IMG/VR virus record: IMGVR_UViG_3300009430_000009
Coordinates: 1-24,892 of that record
Source of the DNA: a virus
Reading direction: 5' to 3' (one strand)
Length of the DNA: 24,892 nt
In this document: positions 10,463 to 24,149 of the stretch, piece by piece
Layout: the number at the start of each line of letters is the position of its first letter
Position numbering within the stretch: position 1 is the stretch's first letter
Made by a program: the position numbers and the translations under genes
Notes under the pieces: model-generated
Databases searched by the model: none
What the model saw: the letters and a program-made list of their open reading frames with translations, nothing else
Told to the model about the DNA's origin: nothing

Positions 10463-10494
10463 TTTGGTAAATAACTTTAAACATAGTATATTTG
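10463..10494 (+). promoter_or_regulatory. promoter of the 10557 HNH gene
   Basis: -33 TTTG, spacer GTAAATAAC..., -7 TATATTTG. It is followed by a 62-nt leader. Confidence 0.85.
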
Positions 10495-10556
10495 CAGTAT
10501 CAAATAACAAATTAGTTGTTATTAAACATTTTTTCATTATAATATATAATGAAAAA

Positions 10557-11312
10557 ATGAAAAAAATGTTTAACGAAAAAGAATACCAAAAAGAATATCA
10601 GAAAAAGTATCGTGAGGAAAAAAGAAAAAATATAACTGAAGAAGAAAAAGAGAAAAAAAAGCAATATAATAAGGAATATCGTGAAAAAAATAAAGAAACC
10701 ATAAAATTTTACAATAAAAAATATCGTGAAGAAAATGAAGAAAAAGTCAAAGAACTACAAAAAAAGCATCATGAAAAAAATAAAAAGGTAAGAGAGAAAA
10801 AGGTAAAAGAGAAAAAAGTATTTGATAAAGAATATTTTAAAAATTATTACTTTAACAATAAAGAGAAAATTAATCTTTATCGTAAAAATAATAAAAATAA
10901 ATATACATATTCTAATAATAAATCAAAAATACTTGAAAGATTAAAAAAACTTAGAAATGAAGACCCTTTATACTCGCTTACTATTAGTATTCGTTCTTTA
11001 ATTTTTATTAGTTTAAAAAATAATGGCTATAAAAAAGAATCAAGAACATATGAAATTTTAGGTTGTTCTTTTGAAGATTTTAAGATTCATTTAGAAAGTC
11101 AATTTGAAAGTTGGATGAATTGGGAAAATAAAGGCAATCCGAAAGATGGTGTATTTGAACCTAATAAAACGTGGGATATAGACCATATTATTCCTATTTC
11201 AAGTGCTAAAACAAAGGAGGAATTATTAGAATTAAGTAAATATACTAATTTAAGACCTTTATTTTCTTACCATAATAGATGGGTTAAAAAAAATAATTTG
11301 GTAGATAAATAA
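10557..11312 (+). CDS. HNH homing endonuclease
   Basis: A 251-residue free-standing HNH endonuclease. Residues 1-110 are a very basic repeat region (KEYQKEYQKKYREEKRK, KEYREKNKE units) likely to wrap DNA. About 150-251 are the nuclease: LGCSFEDFKIHLESQFESW, then WDIDHIIPISSA with the catalytic His, then KYTNLRPLFSYHNRW with the Asn. ATG 10557 is chosen over an upstream in-frame ATG inside the promoter. An ATG at 10548 opens only MKK. It is the only intact plus-strand copy and the only one with a clear promoter. Its last codons TTG GTA GAT AAA TAA form the next promoter's -33 region. Confidence 0.9.
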   Translation: MKKMFNEKEYQKEYQKKYREEKRKNITEEEKEKKKQYNKEYREKNKETIKFYNKKYREENEEKVKELQKKHHEKNKKVREKKVKEKKVFDKEYFKNYYFNNKEKINLYRKNNKNKYTYSNNKSKILERLKKLRNEDPLYSLTISIRSLIFISLKNNGYKKESRTYEILGCSFEDFKIHLESQFESWMNWENKGNPKDGVFEPNKTWDIDHIIPISSAKTKEELLELSKYTNLRPLFSYHNRWVKKNNLVDK

Positions 11313-11436: not shown

Positions 11437-12289
11437 ATGTTTAATGCCTTAGCTTTAATGATGCTAAGTATCGTGTTCATGCAGAGTTGCACATTAGTAG
11501 ATAACACCGAAGCAGGTTTTATCATCAAGAAAAGTGGTAGTTATCGTGGGATTGATTCCTTACCATTAGTTACGGGTTACAATTTCTATATGCCTTTTAC
11601 AGAAAGTGTAATTACAATTCCAACAACCCAACAACATATTATTTGGAGTGAAGGTGCTGATGAAGGCTCTTCCCCTAATCAACACATGGCTGTTCCTTGT
11701 TTGGGTGGTGCAGGATTTAAAATAGATGTTGGTATTAACTATCGTGTAAATCCCTATAAAGCAAGTAAAATTTATCTAAAGTATAGAACGGATAATTTAC
11801 AAAGCATTACAGATACTTATCTAAGAAATGTGGTAAGGGGTTCAATGAATGAAGTTAGTTCTACTTTATCTGTAGATAGTATATTAAATAATGTAAGTGC
11901 ATTTGAAGAATCTTGTAGGGAAAAAAATTAGAAAAACTTTAGCACCTGAAGGATTTATAATTGATAATTTCTACTTTATTCATGCCCCAGTTGCTTCCGA
12001 CCCTAATTTAGCAGCAAGTATTCTTGCTAATCAAAAAGCAAGACAAGATGCTAAAACAGCTACTATGCAATTACAAATTTCAGTAGCAGAAGCTAATAAA
12101 TCAATTGCTCAAGCACGAGGGGATAGTGCAGTTAAGGTTATTAACGCATTAGGTGAAGCAGAAGCAGTAAAGAAAATTCAACAAGTATTATCACCAACCT
12201 ATGTGGAATATACAAAAATTCAAAGATGGAATGGTAAGTTGCCTGATGTAGTTGGTGGTTCGGGTGGAATGATGTTAAACATTAAGTAA
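11437..12289 (+). pseudogene. SPFH/prohibitin-like lipoprotein, split by a frameshift at an A7 run
   Basis: Frame 1 (11437-11931) starts MFNALALMMLSIVFMQSC, a lipoprotein signal with Cys18, then an SPFH domain (VDNTEAGFIIKKSGSYRGID; DVGINYRVNPYKASKIYLKY). It stops at TAG 11929-11931 right after the A7 run 11921-11927. The frame one base away continues KIRKTLAPEGFIIDNFYFIH and the usual SPFH end: a helical QKARQDAKTATMQLQISVAE stretch, ARGDSAVKVINALGEAEA, and TYVEYTKIQRWNGKLPDVVG, to 12289. With six A's the protein is one piece of about 283 residues. SPFH proteins form membrane cage assemblies. Either broken, slippage-expressed, or a sequencing error. Confidence 0.85.
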
Positions 12290-12979: not shown

Positions 12980-13375
12980 ATGATTTCAAAAGAAAGATTA
13001 CACTCTGTTAGTATTGTTCTAATTAACGAACAAAAACAGATTTTAGGTGTATCAAGAAAACATGACCATGATGATATGGGTATCGTAGGGGGAAAAGTTG
13101 ACCCTGAAGATAATTTTGATATAATGGCTGCCGCTATTAGAGAAACAAAAGAAGAAACTGGTTTAGATATATTTGACCTTGAACTTATTTATGCTACATT
13201 TGTAGGGAATAGGATGCAATGGACTTTTTTAGCAAAATATTCTGGCGAAATTCATACAGACGAACCTCATGTTGTTAAATGGATTGATAAAGAAACCTTA
13301 CTAAAAGGTAGCTTTAGAGAGTATAATAATGAAGTTTTAACCTCCCTTAATCAAATGGGAATTACAATCAATTAA
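12980..13375 (+). CDS. Nudix hydrolase
   Basis: A 131-residue single-domain Nudix protein. The Nudix box at about 38-62 reads GKVDPEDNFDIMAAAIRETK then EETGL; the R54-E-x-x-E58-E59 core is intact, but the first box Glu (G-x5-E) is Asp here. Such enzymes cleave nucleoside diphosphates linked to another group; typical substrates are oxidised dNTPs, ADP-ribose, NADH or capped RNA. Which one cannot be told. The Nudix domain at 16547 shares the Asp change. Being 3 kb from the NAD+ genes, an ADP-ribose or dinucleotide substrate is possible. Own promoter and terminator. Confidence 0.88.
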   Translation: MISKERLHSVSIVLINEQKQILGVSRKHDHDDMGIVGGKVDPEDNFDIMAAAIRETKEETGLDIFDLELIYATFVGNRMQWTFLAKYSGEIHTDEPHVVKWIDKETLLKGSFREYNNEVLTSLNQMGITIN

Positions 13376-16502: not shown

Positions 16503-16534
16503 TTTGTTTAATAAAAATTTTTTCCGTATCTTTG
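16503..16534 (+). promoter_or_regulatory. promoter of the NMN adenylyltransferase gene
   Basis: -33 TTTG, spacer TTTAATAAA..., -7 TATCTTTG. Confidence 0.85.
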
Positions 16535-16546
16535 TAAAAAGAAAAT

Positions 16547-17521
16547 ATGACTACACAAAAAAAAATCGGGGTATGTATAATGAGAGTACAAACTCCATTC
16601 CTTACAGAAGGACACCGTACATTAATTGATTATACAGGTTTCCATTCAGACCAATTAATTATTATATTAGGTATCGCCCCAACAATGTTAGCAACCTATA
16701 ACCCACTTATTTACGATATGCGTAAAACTATGGTGGAAATTAGTTATCCAAATGCTATTGTATTAAGTGTTAAAGATACTACAGATGATTTAATTTGGAG
16801 TAATGAAGTAGATAAAGTTCTTTTGCCATATAATAATGAAGATATTACTATTTATGGTGGTCGTGATTCTTTTATTCCTTATTACTTAGGTAATTATAAA
16901 ACATTTGATATTGGCAAAACTCCATTTGACCATATTAATGCTACAACATATAGAAATAAATTGAAAGATTATAAATACTTTCAAGAATTATCAAATAATA
17001 TGATGACAAGTTTTACATCTTTTGAAGATATTGTAGAATTTGGATTTAGATGTGGGGTTATTTGGGCTTCGCAAAATAAATTTCCAGTTGCCTTTGCTAC
17101 TGTTGATATTGGAGTAGTAAGAGAAAATAATGGAGTTGCTGAAATTTTATTAGGTAAAAAATACAAACAAAATGTAAGAGTGTTAATGGGGGGGTTCGTA
17201 GATAAAGAAGACTCTAACTATCTTTCTGCTGCTAAAAGAGAATTAAGAGAAGAAGTCGAAGGAATTAAAACAAGTGAATTAAAATTTATTGATTCATTTA
17301 AAATAGATGATTGGCGCTATAGAAAAACTGCTGATTGTATTATAACTAACTTACATATTTGTAAATGGATTGAAGGTGAACCTAAAGGAGCAGATGATTT
17401 AGAAACCGCAGAATTTTATACTTTTGAAAAAGCATATAGTGTTATAGGAGACCATCATAAGCATTTACTTAATGTTATTGAAAACAACTTAGAATTAGTA
17501 GGTATCAAAATTATTAATTAA
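16547..17521 (+). CDS. nadM: bifunctional NMN adenylyltransferase / Nudix hydrolase
   Basis: A 324-residue two-domain enzyme. Residues 1-145 are a nucleotidyltransferase: MRVQTPFLTEGHRTLI at 12-27 carries a T/HxGH site (T20-E-G-H23; Thr replaces the first His, as CoaD enzymes do), YGGRDSFIPYY is at 103-113, and INATTYR at 130-136 matches the ISTSSxR phosphate motif. Residues 180-324 are Nudix (box 215-240, GGFVDKEDSNYLSAAKRELR), with Asp for the first Glu and one extra residue before its last Gly. The first domain joins NMN and ATP to NAD+; the second usually cleaves ADP-ribose. The nicotinamide phosphoribosyltransferase at 19884 makes its NMN. Confidence 0.92.
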   Translation: MTTQKKIGVCIMRVQTPFLTEGHRTLIDYTGFHSDQLIIILGIAPTMLATYNPLIYDMRKTMVEISYPNAIVLSVKDTTDDLIWSNEVDKVLLPYNNEDITIYGGRDSFIPYYLGNYKTFDIGKTPFDHINATTYRNKLKDYKYFQELSNNMMTSFTSFEDIVEFGFRCGVIWASQNKFPVAFATVDIGVVRENNGVAEILLGKKYKQNVRVLMGGFVDKEDSNYLSAAKRELREEVEGIKTSELKFIDSFKIDDWRYRKTADCIITNLHICKWIEGEPKGADDLETAEFYTFEKAYSVIGDHHKHLLNVIENNLELVGIKIIN

Positions 17522-17526
17522 TATCT

Positions 17527-17558
17527 AATAATAGGGGTTTATATAAACCCCTATTATT
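17527..17558. terminator. bidirectional terminator between nadM and HNH gene
   Basis: AATAATAGGGGTTTA pairs with TAAACCCCTATTATT, close to a perfect palindrome. It overlaps the end of the minus-strand HNH gene. Confidence 0.85.
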
Positions 17559-18234
17559 CTAATACATTATTTTTTTTAACACACCTATTATAATAGGAAC
17601 ATAAAGGTTGTAAATTAGTATATTTACTTAATTCTAAAAGTTCTTTTTTATTTATTGCTGATGCTAAAGGTATAATATGGTCTATATCCCATGTTTTATT
17701 TGGTTCAAATATATTATCTTTAGGATTGCCGTAATTTTCCCAATTCATCCATGATTCAAATTTAGATTCTAAGTAGATTTTAAAATCTTCAAAAGAACAG
17801 CCTAATAATTCTTCACTTTTTTTAGTCTTTGGTAAACTTTTAATTTTTAAGGTTCTCCATACAATTTTTCTAACACTAACACTTAACTTAAATAAAGGGT
17901 CATTTTCTTTCCTAATTTTTGTTCTTTTATTTGCTTTTTCATTTAATTTTTCACGATTTTTTGAAATATATTCTTTTTGGTAATTTTTATACCATTTTTT
18001 TCTTTTTTCTGTTTGACTTCTTAATTTATCACGTTCTCTCCTTTTTTGTTTTTTTAATTCAATAGCTTCTTTAGTCTTTTCTTTTTTATATTTAAAATTA
18101 AATTCTATTTCAAGCTGCTTAATTTTATCTTCAATTTCTAATGAAAAATTTTTTTTCATTTTTTCTTTCATTTTATAAATTATATCACGTTCTTTTTTTC
18201 TTTGTTTTTGTTCATTTGTTAATTCTTTTTTCAT
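17554..18234 (-). CDS. HNH homing endonuclease
   Basis: A 226-residue minus-strand relative of the HNH at 10557. The basic coiled N-terminus (about 1-110, KEKMKKNFSLEIEDKIKQLE, RDKLRSQTEKRKK) differs in sequence. The nuclease half has LGCSFEDFKIYLESKFESW, WDIDHIIPLASA (His) and KYTNLQPLCSYYNRC (Asn). No standard promoter lies upstream on the minus strand, so it may be expressed poorly or from read-through. It sits in the middle of the NAD+ gene region, tail to tail with nadM. Confidence 0.9.
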   Translation of the reverse strand: MKKELTNEQKQRKKERDIIYKMKEKMKKNFSLEIEDKIKQLEIEFNFKYKKEKTKEAIELKKQKRRERDKLRSQTEKRKKWYKNYQKEYISKNREKLNEKANKRTKIRKENDPLFKLSVSVRKIVWRTLKIKSLPKTKKSEELLGCSFEDFKIYLESKFESWMNWENYGNPKDNIFEPNKTWDIDHIIPLASAINKKELLELSKYTNLQPLCSYYNRCVKKNNVLE

Positions 18235-18263
18235 ATATTATATGTTAAAAAAGTGAAAAAAGA

Positions 18264-18295
18264 TTTGGTAAATAACTTTTATTACCGTATATTTG
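18264..18295 (+). promoter_or_regulatory. promoter of the 18300 gene (leaderless start)
   Basis: -33 TTTG, spacer GTAAATAAC..., -7 TATATTTG, ATG 5 nt later. Confidence 0.85.
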
Positions 18296-18299
18296 TGTT

Positions 18300-18845
18300 A
18301 TGAAAATTTTAAGTAAATTCAAAGACTATTACGATTATCTGCAAGGTATCTATGGTATAGATACTACTTTAGTTTTAGATAGAACTGAATACACACCTAC
18401 TAATTATTCTCCAAGTATTGATTGTATAGAAACTTTTATTATAGGTGAATATAAAGTGCAAGGGTTTTGGCATAAAGGTAAAATTTATTATGGTGAAGAA
18501 ATTAAAAAATTAGGTTTAAAAGTATGTGATGATTTTTTTAATGAAAATATTTTCATTATTGAAGGTAATCATAAAGTATTAAAAAAACCTTTATTAATAA
18601 ATAATAGCCCTGCTTATGAATACAATTGCCCTATCTTAATAAAAGATTGGGGTTCAAAATACAAAAAAAATCCTATATTAAAAGACTATTCCATGCAAAA
18701 AGTATTTCCACCAAATGAAATGTGGATTTTATTATATGATTTTTTAACTAAATTAAAAAGTAATTATGAAGTAGTTGAACAATCAAATGAGAATAAAATT
18801 ATATCTCATGCGTTTGATTTAAAAACTTCTTTTAGAGGAAAATAA
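18300..18845 (+). CDS. conserved phage protein of unknown function
   Basis: A 181-residue protein. The start MKILSKFKDYYDYLQGIYGI and the end ISHAFDLKTSFRGK are the hallmarks of a family I recall from many large phages without known role. The middle carries an aromatic VQGFWHKGKIYYGEEIK. ATG lies 5 nt after the -7 box, so it is leaderless. The next promoter overlaps its stop region. Confidence 0.8.
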   Translation: MKILSKFKDYYDYLQGIYGIDTTLVLDRTEYTPTNYSPSIDCIETFIIGEYKVQGFWHKGKIYYGEEIKKLGLKVCDDFFNENIFIIEGNHKVLKKPLLINNSPAYEYNCPILIKDWGSKYKKNPILKDYSMQKVFPPNEMWILLYDFLTKLKSNYEVVEQSNENKIISHAFDLKTSFRGK

Positions 18846-18846
18846 A

Positions 18847-18878
18847 TTTGATTATTAACTATCAATACCTTATATTTG
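18847..18878 (+). promoter_or_regulatory. promoter of the 18883 gene (leaderless start)
   Basis: -33 TTTG, spacer ATTATTAAC..., -7 TATATTTG. Nearly identical to the cassette at 19487. Confidence 0.85.
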
Positions 18879-18882
18879 CAGT

Positions 18883-19485
18883 ATGACAAAAGCAGAGTTA
18901 ATAACCGATATAAAAAAATATTCTGAATATAAAGATGTTAAAGATTATATTCTGAATAAAAAGAAAAAGGAAGAACTTGTTTCTATACTCGAAAAATTAT
19001 CGGGCAAACCACTCGTTGAAGTTAAAACTTTATCAAAAGAAATATTAAATAAAATTTCTGAAAAAGAAATTGAATTGGCTAAATATGCAGATAAATGTGA
19101 TATTTGGAACGAAAGAACTGCTAATAGGATAAGGTCGAATGAAGAAGCATACAAAAATAGAGAGATTTGTGCGAAACTTAAAAAAGAGATAAGAGATTTA
19201 AAAGAATCAAATATCCCCGATGTTACCGATTTGAAAAAAGTGTATAACGGTAATAAAAAACAAATTACTTTTTCAATAGGTAAAGATAAGTTTTTATACG
19301 AGGAAATACCTACAGGTAGAAGTATATGTGATGGAGAGTATTATAAATACGAAACTACTTTTAAACTTAGTAAAAATGGTGTTATCATTAAAAATAGTAC
19401 AAGTTATGTGCATGAATTAGCAGAATCTAGCCCTTCTATGTATGGTGATATTTTTAATGAAAAACAATGCAGACAATTAAAATAA
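18883..19485 (+). CDS. protein with KKYSEY helical module and coiled coil
   Basis: A 200-residue protein. Residues 1-42 (TKAELITDIKKYSEYKDVKD; LVSILEKLSG) are homologous to the N-terminus of the 5075 product. A coiled coil runs about 45-110 (EKEIELAKYADKCDIWNERT), and residues 120-200 form a beta-rich domain (YNGNKKQITFSIGKDKFLYE) ending FNEKQCRQLK. The same N-terminal unit on two different bodies suggests a shared targeting or binding module. Leaderless. Confidence 0.8.
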   Translation: MTKAELITDIKKYSEYKDVKDYILNKKKKEELVSILEKLSGKPLVEVKTLSKEILNKISEKEIELAKYADKCDIWNERTANRIRSNEEAYKNREICAKLKKEIRDLKESNIPDVTDLKKVYNGNKKQITFSIGKDKFLYEEIPTGRSICDGEYYKYETTFKLSKNGVIIKNSTSYVHELAESSPSMYGDIFNEKQCRQLK

Positions 19486-19486
19486 A

Positions 19487-19518
19487 TTTGATTATTAACT
19501 ATCAATACCTTATATTTG
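19487..19518 (+). promoter_or_regulatory. promoter of the 19523 gene (leaderless start)
   Basis: -33 TTTG, spacer ATTATTAAC..., -7 TATATTTG; a copy of the cassette at 18847. Confidence 0.85.
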
Positions 19519-19522
19519 AAGT

Positions 19523-19828
19523 ATGAAAAATTTATTAATAGAAGTTAAACAAGAAGATTTAATAGTTTGTGATAACCCAACTTGTAATTTTCATATTCCT
19601 TATACGGATGAAAATAAAGATGAATTATCCTACTATATAAATATACCTTGCCCTAAATGTGGTGAAAATTTATTAACTGAAAAAGATTTTATTCAATCTG
19701 AAAAAGTCATGAATTTAATTAATTGGTTAAATAAATATTTTAGTTGGTTAAACTATGTTTTCTTTTGGCAAAAGAAAACAAATATTGGTAGTATTCATGT
19801 ACATAATGGTATCAACATTAAAAAATAA
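19523..19828 (+). CDS. small zinc-ribbon protein
   Basis: A 101-residue protein with four zinc-ligand Cys: CDNPTC (C16, C21) and CPKC (C43, C46), the latter in PCPKCGENLLTEKDF. After them comes an aromatic helix LINWLNKYFSWLNYVFFW at about 66-83. I recall close relatives in phages, all of unknown role. Probably a protein- or nucleic-acid-binding adaptor. Leaderless. Confidence 0.8.
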   Translation: MKNLLIEVKQEDLIVCDNPTCNFHIPYTDENKDELSYYINIPCPKCGENLLTEKDFIQSEKVMNLINWLNKYFSWLNYVFFWQKKTNIGSIHVHNGINIKK

Positions 19829-19829
19829 A

Positions 19830-19861
19830 TTTGATTATTAACTATTTTTTTCGTATTTTTG
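19830..19861 (+). promoter_or_regulatory. promoter of the nicotinamide phosphoribosyltransferase gene
   Basis: -33 TTTG, spacer ATTATTAAC..., -7 TATTTTTG; the -33 half matches the cassettes at 18847 and 19487. Confidence 0.85.
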
Positions 19862-19883
19862 TGTTATAAAAAAACAACATATT

Positions 19884-21545
19884 ATGAGTAAATCAATGTT
19901 AGATTACAAACGTAAAAATCACAAAACACCTCGTTTAGTAATTACAGATGCTTACACAATTGGTTCAAATCCATTTGAAAGTGAACAAGCAAAAAACCAA
20001 TCAGTTTATTACATTACTGCAAGAAAATTTTTAGATACAATTAACCACAGTCTTTACACAAAAGAAGATGCACGATATATTTTTAAAGGGTTATCAAAAT
20101 TAATTGATTATCTTTTATTTGAGCCTATTACAATGGAAGAAATTTTAGAAACTGATAGATTTTTAGAATTTCAAAAAGTTACCCTAAATGGTTTAGCAAA
20201 ATTTGAATATCCTCGTGAACTTTGGGTAAGAATAGTTGAAGAATTTGGTGGGCGTATTCCTATTAGAATAAAAGCCCTACCCGAAGGTTCTGTTTTTTAT
20301 CCACACGAACCTATCGTAGAAATTGAAACAAGTGTAAAAGATTTTGGTGTATTAGCCGCTTGGTTTGAAAGTTCACTCTTAAAAATTTGGGCTGCTACCG
20401 AAATGGTTACACAATTAGAACATTGGGTTCTTTATTACTTGGGATTGATGGATGAAATTTACGGAGATTCAATTTCAAAAGAACAAAAAGATTTCTTTGC
20501 TCGTGGAATGTTACACAATTTTGGTTGTCGTGCAGGTATGACACCACAAGAATCAGAATGGCTTGGCGAAGAAGCATTATTTAGTTTTTCGGGAACTGAT
20601 ACCTTTAGCGGTGCTTATCAATTTTGGAAAAATGCAGGTGAAGAAGCAGGACACTCTTTTTCAGTTAGTGCTTTAGCACATAGAAATATTCAAAGCTACG
20701 ATAAAGAATTTGATTGCTTTGAAGCATTATTTAACTACTTAAAAAGTGGTGAACTTGGTTCAAATGTTGCAGATTGTAACGATTTCTTTATTGCTGTTAA
20801 AAAAATAGGCAATGATAATAAACTTATCAAAGGTTGTTTACTTGAATTGGCTTTAAGAAGTAAAGAATTAGGTTTAAATGTTGTTGTTGTTATAAGACCT
20901 GATTCTGGCGATGCGGCAAAACAATTACTATTTGTTTGCGATACTGCAAAAGAATATGGTTTGTTTAGAGAAATTGAAATTAATGGTAAAACTTGGTACG
21001 GTGGTACTTTACTAAGATTTATTGAAGGGGATGGCATGAAATGGGAAACCATGAAAAAAATAAACGATATTCTTTTAGCAAATAATTATTTGGTTTGGGA
21101 ATGGGGTTTATATGGAATGGGTGGTGGTATGAGAAATGCCCTAAGTCGTGATAATTCATCTATGAAATATGCTTTATGTGCTGTTGGTGAAGAATTAAGA
21201 CCAGTTGTTAAATTTTCTGAAACTGCTGGAAAATCTACTTTGCCGGGACCTTTTAAACTTTTAAGAAGTAAAGAAGCATTGGAAAGTGGTATTACAATTG
21301 TAGGTATTAATGAAGTGGGTGAAGATGCAAGGGTTATTTATTACGATGGCTTAAATCCAAAATTCTTTGGTGATGTAATGTTTGAAGATAATAGAGATTA
21401 CAAAAAAAGAATTAGGCAACAAATGGATTTTATGCCAAAAAGATTAAAAAATGATATTCCTGCAAGCGAATTTATTTTGAATAAGCGTTTAGAATTATTA
21501 GCTAAATATGCTCCAGAAAAACTTGAAACTTTCTTAAAAGGTTAA
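19884..21545 (+). CDS. nadV: nicotinamide phosphoribosyltransferase
   Basis: A 553-residue enzyme that makes NMN from nicotinamide and PRPP. The active-site residues known from human NAMPT all have counterparts: FGCR at 213-216 (Phe and Arg stack nicotinamide), GTDT with Asp239 (amide recognition), His266 in ALAH (the phosphorylated catalytic His), Asp297, VIRPDSGD with Arg338 (phosphate), EGDG at 381-384, and GMGGGMRNALSRD with the Gly loop and Arg422. It is longer than the human 491, with an extra loop before His266 (GEEAGHSFSV) and a longer C-terminus. With nadM it forms a complete NMN route to NAD+. Own promoter and terminator. Confidence 0.96.
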   Translation: MSKSMLDYKRKNHKTPRLVITDAYTIGSNPFESEQAKNQSVYYITARKFLDTINHSLYTKEDARYIFKGLSKLIDYLLFEPITMEEILETDRFLEFQKVTLNGLAKFEYPRELWVRIVEEFGGRIPIRIKALPEGSVFYPHEPIVEIETSVKDFGVLAAWFESSLLKIWAATEMVTQLEHWVLYYLGLMDEIYGDSISKEQKDFFARGMLHNFGCRAGMTPQESEWLGEEALFSFSGTDTFSGAYQFWKNAGEEAGHSFSVSALAHRNIQSYDKEFDCFEALFNYLKSGELGSNVADCNDFFIAVKKIGNDNKLIKGCLLELALRSKELGLNVVVVIRPDSGDAAKQLLFVCDTAKEYGLFREIEINGKTWYGGTLLRFIEGDGMKWETMKKINDILLANNYLVWEWGLYGMGGGMRNALSRDNSSMKYALCAVGEELRPVVKFSETAGKSTLPGPFKLLRSKEALESGITIVGINEVGEDARVIYYDGLNPKFFGDVMFEDNRDYKKRIRQQMDFMPKRLKNDIPASEFILNKRLELLAKYAPEKLETFLKG

Positions 21546-23146: not shown

Positions 23147-23935
23147 TTATAATAAATTATCTATTTTAATAAATCTATTTGTATAACTACAAAGTGGTTG
23201 AAGATTTGTATAATGGTTTAATTTAATAACTTCTTCTTCACTTGTTGCTGAAGATAAAGGTATAATATGGTCTACATCCCATGTTTTATTTAATTCAAAG
23301 ATACCGACTTTGGGGTTGCCATAATTATCCCAATTCATCCACGATTCAAATTTAGATTCTAAATATATCTTAAAATCTTCATAAGAACAACCTAAAATTT
23401 CATAAGTTCTTGATTCTTTTATAAAACCTTTATTTTTTAATGATTTAAAAATTAAACTTCTTATATTACAAGTTAATTTGTATAAAGGGTCATTTTCTCT
23501 TTTTTCTTTTGATTTTTTATTAATTATATCTTTGTTTTTTTCTTTATACGACTTATTATATTCTTTTTGATAATTTTTAATATCAATTTTATTTTTTTCT
23601 ACATATTCCTTTTGGTATTCTCTAATTTTTATTTCATTATTTATAAAATAAGTCTTAGTTATTTCTTTTATTTTTTCCCTTTTATAAGAATCTATATTTT
23701 GTCTATATTTTCTCATATATAAATTTATATCTTCTCTATTATTAGAGAAATATTCTTTTTGATATTCTTTAATCTTTTCTTTATTTTTATCTTTATATTT
23801 TTTTCTTTTTTCTTTAATAACATCCTTATTTTCTGATAAGTATTTTATTCTTTTTTCTCTTAAAACTTTTTTGTTTTTTTCTCTATATTCTCTTTGCTTT
23901 TTATTTCTTTCCTCTTTTTTTATATCAATTTCCAT
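23147..23935 (-). CDS. HNH homing endonuclease
   Basis: A 262-residue minus-strand HNH. It has the clearest N-terminal repeat: about eight units like KEYREKNKEKIKEYQKEY over residues 1-140, a long basic coil. The nuclease half has LGCSYEDFKIYLESKFESW, WDVDHIIPLSSA (His) and HYTNLQPLCSYTNRF (Asn). It is the closest intact relative of the broken copy at 4507 (both have HYTNL and ESRTxEILGC). No standard promoter is seen upstream on the minus strand. It lies next to the tRNA gene. Confidence 0.9.
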   Translation of the reverse strand: MEIDIKKEERNKKQREYREKNKKVLREKRIKYLSENKDVIKEKRKKYKDKNKEKIKEYQKEYFSNNREDINLYMRKYRQNIDSYKREKIKEITKTYFINNEIKIREYQKEYVEKNKIDIKNYQKEYNKSYKEKNKDIINKKSKEKRENDPLYKLTCNIRSLIFKSLKNKGFIKESRTYEILGCSYEDFKIYLESKFESWMNWDNYGNPKVGIFELNKTWDVDHIIPLSSATSEEEVIKLNHYTNLQPLCSYTNRFIKIDNLL

Positions 23936-24046: not shown

Positions 24047-24136
24047 ATCGGGGTGACGAAACTAGGTAGCCGTAACAGACTTAAAATCTGTCGCTTGTTG
24101 ATAAACAGCGTGTGGGTTCGACTCCCATCCCCGATA
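24047..24136 (+). tRNA. tRNA-Leu (anticodon UAA)
   Basis: A full cloverleaf of 90 nt. Acceptor ATCGGGG/CCCCGAT (7 bp), D-arm ACG/CGT, anticodon stem ACAGA/TCTGT with loop CTTAAAA (anticodon TAA, decoding UUA), a long variable arm typical of Leu (CGCTTGTT...AACAGCG), and T-arm GTGGG-TTCGACT-CCCAT. Discriminator A; CCA is not encoded. UUA is the commonest Leu codon in this AT-rich DNA, so the tRNA should help phage translation. Own promoter. Confidence 0.93.
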
Positions 24137-24149
24137 CAAAAAAAAAAGA

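Follow-up and report, generated by a model that had tools for sequence, protein, structure and literature searches.

The 24,892-base stretch of DNA analyzed here (the window; positions 1 to 24,892 of the IMG/VR virus record IMGVR_UViG_3300009430_000009) probably carries a phage-borne nicotinamide adenine dinucleotide (NAD+) salvage pair of the NadV-NadM or NARP2 type, whether it serves counter-defense or general NAD+ supply. The pair comprises a nicotinamide phosphoribosyltransferase (Nampt/NadV) and a bifunctional nicotinamide mononucleotide (NMN) adenylyltransferase/Nudix protein of the NadM type (Table 1), and the two predicted enzymes very probably form a route from nicotinamide to NAD+. 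NadV-NadM pairs of phages, their bias towards jumbo phages and the counter-defense reading have already been published, and the pathway itself is known; new here are the diverged branch to which this Nampt belongs, termed clade L and known mostly from huge phages, and the links of that branch. The known salvage pathway thereby gains a diverged enzyme lineage from huge and Bacteroidota-associated phages, in whose hosts Nampt is rare.

A preliminary description of the window had proposed a two-step NAD+ salvage pathway, with two genes 2.4 kb apart and Asp239, His266 and Arg338 as the key Nampt residues. Both open reading frames (ORFs) were recovered on the plus strand with a measured gap of 2,362 bp, the residue numbering proved correct, and the identity of the adenylyltransferase-Nudix protein was confirmed; the predicted nicotinamide-to-NAD+ route and the pathway type are supported as well. 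The present analysis adds the divergent Nampt clade, a possible return of ribose 5-phosphate by the Nudix half, and the finding that a normally contiguous pair is here split by three ORFs plus an HNH-like gene.

The window has a G+C content of 25.5%, and nearly all of its genes lie on the plus strand. It is called a phage because of the IMG/VR virus record class and its relatives in huge phages; the designation does not draw on any structural gene within the window. A near-identical phage record was looked for and none was found.

Table 1. Predicted features of the window, numbered from its first base.
Feature	Position	Strand	Size	Basis or remark
HNH-like gene, paralogue	10464-11312	+		
SPFH/band-7 (prohibitin-like) gene, first frame	11437-11931	+		overlaps second frame
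SPFH/band-7 (prohibitin-like) gene, second frame	11897-12289	+		
Stand-alone Nudix hydrolase	12980-13375	+	131 aa	
Bacteroidota-type promoter before nadM	16504-16534	+		TTG-N20-TATCTTTG
nadM-type NMN adenylyltransferase/Nudix (ADP-ribose pyrophosphatase-like)	16547-17521	+	324 aa	profiles, fold, motifs
HNH endonuclease-like gene, paralogue	17554-18234	-		Pfam HNH 0.027, below cut-off; homologous, with its paralogues, to an ORF of L051
ORF without assigned function	18300-18845	+		own promoter at 18265
ORF without assigned function	18883-19485	+		own promoter at 18848
Small ORF without assigned function	19523-19828	+		own promoter at 19488
Bacteroidota-type promoter before nampt	19831-19861	+		TTG-N20-TATTTTTG
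Divergent long Nampt/NadV (clade L)	19884-21545	+	553 aa	profiles, structures, tree
HNH-like gene, paralogue	23147-23935	-		
tRNA-Leu (TAA) gene	24047-24137	+		

Assignment of the nicotinamide phosphoribosyltransferase

The Nampt matched the Pfam NAPRTase family at 8e-10 and PHROG 448, annotated as nicotinamide phosphoribosyl transferase, at 3e-37. The human, mouse and Xcc NAMPT structures were matched at 1e-20 to 1e-22 with the single sequence, and Nampt structures at 8e-48 with a clade-L profile. Asp239, His266 and Arg338 lie in the GTD, AxH and RPDS motifs common to canonical Nampt, align with the canonical D, H and R, and are invariant across 14 relatives. The contacts to nicotinamide and ribose 5-phosphate, at positions defined by solved Namat and Nampt structures (PMC12774641), are likewise all kept and invariant in 14 clade-L members (D22, Y24, F213, R216, D239, A263, R338, D340, G382, D383 and R422, plus the catalytic H266). 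An AlphaFold model (pLDDT 82) gave human, mouse and Xcc NAMPT as its best Foldseek matches, while NAPRT and NAMPT were tied at Z 19-20 when the monomer model was compared by VIA-align 2.

Clade L was monophyletic with 100% support, and its branch was long, at 2.78 changes per column. Its members are about 550 aa long and comprise, besides the window protein, that of the 635-kb uncultured huge phage LR745206.1 and those of about twenty IMG/VR contigs, several of them 120-600 kb in length; the IMG/VR relatives came from alignment-based scans, single-sequence scans having returned none. The nearest relative is 54% identical to the window Nampt, most members fall at 45-54%, and the LR745206.1 protein is 50% identical. 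Around the catalytic histidine, clade L has ALAHRN (ALAHHT in L025) where canonical enzymes have xxEHST; DAYTIGS replaces the canonical DSYKxxH, and RN stands in the glycine motif.

A drift of the clade-L enzyme towards a different substrate, be it the base (nicotinic acid, as for NAPRT) or the donor of the phosphoribosyl group, is unlikely; the pair would then act elsewhere in pyridine metabolism. The long branch and the changed residues beside the catalytic histidine would suit such a drift, as would the monomer model, which superposed best on NAPRT chains by root-mean-square deviation (rmsd; 3.3 A, Z 20.2), with NAMPT chains tied in Z (19.4). However, Asp239, which recognizes the amide in Nampt, is kept in all members together with Phe213 and Tyr24, sequence profiles rank Nampt far above NAPRT, and the partner NadM is of the NMN type. 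The better structural match to NAPRT was not accepted, as the rmsd was dominated by domain placement, about which a monomer model of a dimeric enzyme says little.

Assignment of the NMN adenylyltransferase-Nudix protein

The C-terminal part of the second protein matched Pfam NUDIX at 6e-8 (33 bits, cut-off 21). With the single sequence, the best NCBIfam NMNAT/Nudix equivalog match was 2e-10, and PDB entry 2qjo was matched at 2e-4 across residues 2-297, nearly the whole length; a profile of 25 phage relatives matched 2qjt at 1.5e-22 and 2qjo at 4.5e-20. The six best Foldseek matches in the PDB to the AlphaFold model (pLDDT 91) were all bifunctional NMNAT/ADP-ribose pyrophosphatase (NadM) chains, 2r5w, 2qjt and 2qjo among them. 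Because the relative placement of the two domains differs, template modeling scores over the whole chain were low (0.42-0.44).

The adenylyltransferase signature (H/T)xGH is present as T20-E-G-H23, its first position being H in most phage NadM homologues and T or S in some. The ISSTxxR-like motif reads NATTYR136, with R136 invariant. The Nudix box GGFVDKEDSNYLSAAKRELREE (GGFVD...RELREE) is intact at RExxEE and one residue longer than that of 2qjo, and the protein carries an insertion of about 20 aa. The score of 40 bits lies below the NCBIfam equivalog cut-off of 409, a naming threshold below which the huge-phage homologues also fall. NadM membership is thus claimed on sequence architecture and modeled fold, not at the equivalog level.

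Pathway type

A NARP2 pathway consists of Nampt and an NMN adenylyltransferase. The window encodes a Nampt with the catalytic Asp, His and Arg, an NMN adenylyltransferase occurs in the same phage, and the pairing of the two is conserved. NARP1 consists of Adps and Namat, and Namat has a GSx...TRD motif with adenine-stacking aromatics (PMC12774641); both pathways replenish NAD+ (PMC11984713).

That the Nampt-like protein is instead a Namat, which would make NAD+ in a single step from nicotinamide and ADP-ribose pyrophosphate, is extremely improbable. Both are Nampt homologues, and the length is similar to that of some Namat-like proteins (562-597 aa). Nevertheless, in the alignment the Namat clamp motif is absent from the window Nampt (GMGGGMRNALSRD) and from all clade-L proteins, which have GxGGGxRNxLxRD in its place. 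Five of six phage proteins encoded beside a ribose-phosphate pyrophosphokinase-like gene have the clamp (e.g., GSYTYQYMTRD), and the sixth, from Listeria, has a close form (GAYMYSFSLSRD). This prs-neighbor group and clade L separate with 100% support, and the clade-L profile gave 147-166 bits for Nampt compared with 75 bits for the Namat structures 9W5W and 9W5X. Moreover, the neighboring gene is NadM, not Adps, and no Adps gene was seen among the scanned ORFs of the window, a 24.9-kb fragment. The Namat identity was accordingly rejected, and the pair is classed from its sequence as NARP2-like (NadV-NadM), in agreement with the earlier assignment, because the clamp is absent, the clades are separate and the profile scores favor Nampt.

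NadV-NadM (NatV) salvage was reportedly described in Vibrio phage KVP40 by Lee et al. in 2017. KVP40 and other large phages encode these two enzymes as well, the NMNAT-Nudix fusion included (Iyer et al. 2022, PMC9503650), whereas the window Nampt is only about 26-27% identical to NadV of T4-like phages, bears clade-specific motifs and is accompanied by Bacteroidota-type host signals. As NARP2 is presented in later papers (Osterman et al. 2024, via PMC11984713 and PMC12300627), the same route through Nampt and an NMN adenylyltransferase would be expected to rebuild NAD+; the predicted window pair differs in having a Nampt from a divergent clade of about 550 aa, an NMNAT fused to Nudix, and a 2.4-kb distance between the genes, each of which has its own promoter. 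NARP1 (PMC12774641) shares with it a Nampt-like transferase using nicotinamide and the biological aim, but the window pair lacks the Namat clamp, shows no Adps in the window, and needs a separate NMNAT, which it has.

Conserved pairing of the two genes

Pairing was surveyed at 80 viral loci found by NadM alone, 62 of which remained after near-copies were removed. In 59 of the 62, a Nampt gene followed NadM at no more than 4 kb on the same strand; it was upstream in two and absent within about 8 kb in one. Chance pairing was thereby rejected, and the survey agrees with a published report that NadV accompanies NadM in every phage that has the latter (PMC9503650). The gap was below 150 bp in 33 of the 59 pairs and 1-2.5 kb in eight. 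In LR745206.1, NadM and the clade-L Nampt are 10 bp apart. NadM lies directly upstream of Nampt in most carriers of clade L and the genes are contiguous in many, unlike in the window, where an HNH-like gene and three ORFs intervene. A Pfam scan of the ORFs between and around the pair gave no informative match.

These intervening genes would fit a pair of decaying remnants that a mobile HNH gene has driven apart and that have ceased to cooperate, as would the Thr in place of the first catalytic His of NadM (T20) and its insertion. Such decay is very unlikely: both ORFs are full length and retain their catalytic residues, T/HxGH is a permitted variant, with T or S recurring in other phage NadM proteins, each gene is preceded by a good promoter, and eight other pairs have gaps of similar size.

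The window holds three paralogous HNH-like genes, the one between the enzymes among them. All three have a C-terminal domain in common (ILGCSFEDFKIHLES...WDIDHIIP), and one of them matches an endonuclease VII PHROG at 3e-10. Interruption of the Nampt gene itself recurs in relatives (L021/L140, L022/L023/L141, L049, L062 and L098). In L140 the ORF is split with an endonuclease-like ORF between the parts, and in L141 an in-frame insertion of about 330 aa yields an 878-aa Nampt. Among these interrupted relatives, no group I or II intron exceeded Rfam thresholds and no intein domain was named by Pfam.

Promoters and predicted host

The pattern TTG-N17-22-TAnnTTTG occurred at 38 sites on the plus strand and four on the minus strand, compared with a shuffle mean of 3.7, and 33 of the 38 plus-strand sites shared exactly one spacing (TTG-N20-TAnnTTTG). 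This pattern is the promoter type known from Bacteroidota, and it points to a host in that phylum. Among 296 Bacteroidota genomes sampled, just 23 encoded a Nampt; most hosts of this kind would thus gain from the phage a way of using nicotinamide that they lack.

The same promoter type does precede both enzyme genes, as the preliminary description had it, but the co-expression deduced there was downgraded. This promoter is found upstream of the majority of the window's genes, the small ones between nadM and nampt among them, and therefore says little about co-expression or co-regulation. Four similar 52-nt copies, start-codon context included, lie between 18256 and 19873.

Gene neighborhoods of clade L in relatives

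Of ten clade-L carriers, nine being large contigs from IMG/VR and one a huge-phage record, six had the N-terminal domain of phosphoribosyl pyrophosphate (PRPP) synthetase. Five of these six have PRPP synthetase on the Nampt strand, at a distance of 1.5-9 kb downstream; Sir2 stood between the two genes in three of the five. The NadM-Nampt pair itself tends to travel together. The prs genes of the relatives scored as true PRPP synthetase (257-309 bits), whereas Adps-type genes gave 60-140 bits. Neither PRPP synthetase nor Sir2 was seen in the window, which ends 3.3 kb after Nampt.

In L137 and L138, dCMP deaminase and a HAD-SAK RNA-repair-type phosphatase accompany Nampt, Sir2 and PRPP synthetase, together with an ORF that by eye resembles Thg1 (tRNA-His guanylyltransferase).

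A bacterial clade-L Nampt was found once, in a Candidatus Kapaibacterium metagenome-assembled genome (L136; 44% identity). There it directly follows a gene with an NrtR winged-helix domain (L136:5204-5869), and no NadM was seen beside it, in contrast to the window. NrtR is a repressor of NAD biosynthesis. The assembly comprises 7.9 Mb in many contigs, so the placement is tentative; the NrtR-linked Nampt is a possible bacterial source of clade L. In the literature, which was partially covered, no description of clade-L Nampt or of its association with NrtR and with PRPP synthetase was found.

Proposed mechanism and role

In the proposed pathway, Nampt would convert nicotinamide and PRPP to NMN, and the adenylyltransferase half of NadM would convert NMN and ATP to NAD+. 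The Nudix half would probably split ADP-ribose into AMP and ribose 5-phosphate, from which PRPP would be remade by the PRPP synthetase of the host or, in several relatives, of the phage. Both products of NADase defenses, nicotinamide and ADP-ribose, would thus be reused, and by precedent NAD+ would be rebuilt after the action of TIR, SIR2 or SEFIR effectors. Judging from gene content, the Nudix half and PRPP synthetase could close an ADP-ribose recycling cycle, which raises the question of whether the phage regains the ribose of destroyed NAD+ besides the nicotinamide.

Judging from the enzyme families and by analogy with studied phage pathways, the enzymes would be active, expressed in infection and used against NAD-depleting immunity, be it with or without a general contribution to NAD+ supply. 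Counter-defense is a reasonably likely main use of the pair: published NARP1 and NARP2 work is reported to defeat NAD-depleting defenses (PMC11984713), and the Nudix half suits the recycling of ADP-ribose, a product of such NADase defenses. A less probable, though considerable, alternative is that the same enzymes mainly raise NAD+ levels and turnover for replication and for NAD-using phage enzymes (Sir2, RNA-repair proteins). This role fits the sequence equally well and is the reading taken in reviews and phage papers (PMC13282480, PMC5107563). Some clade-L phages have Sir2, a phage NAD+ user, near the pair, and one has genes for dCMP deaminase and a HAD-SAK protein after Nampt; the scarcity of Nampt in Bacteroidota suits this role as well.

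Several observations weigh against the proposed salvage pair. The Nampt is distant from characterized enzymes, at about 20-27% identity, and sits on the long clade-L branch, with some positions adjoining the active site changed clade-wide. It scored 141 bits on NCBIfam NF006629, below the equivalog cut-off of 405 bits that serves as a naming threshold, whereas the canonical phage Nampts P0007 and P0010 reached 583 and 486 bits. The adenylyltransferase match of NadM is weak by single sequence (2e-4), and the two genes stand apart, each with its own promoter. Supply of NAD+ for replication would leave the same sequence trace, and in a 24.9-kb contig a PRPP synthetase or an anti-defense context elsewhere in the phage is out of view.

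A more speculative and rather doubtful proposal is that clade-L Nampt is a functionally distinct enzyme. Its changed ALAHRN, DAYTIGS and GGGxRN motifs and its extra length might alter donor use or free it from host feedback; with the Nudix half and a phage PRPP synthetase it would then form a closed cycle from ADP-ribose to NAD+, distinct from NARP1 and from a plain two-gene NARP2.

Other features of the window

The SPFH/band-7 gene is split across two overlapping frames, which may reflect a frameshift, a sequencing error or decay; Rhizobium phage B1VFA (L107) likewise has a prohibitin gene close to its NadM-Nampt genes. The second, stand-alone Nudix hydrolase is 50% identical to a Nudix protein encoded 2.6 kb upstream of NadM in L065, and by its sequence it is a candidate for a further ADP-ribose or nucleotide hydrolase.

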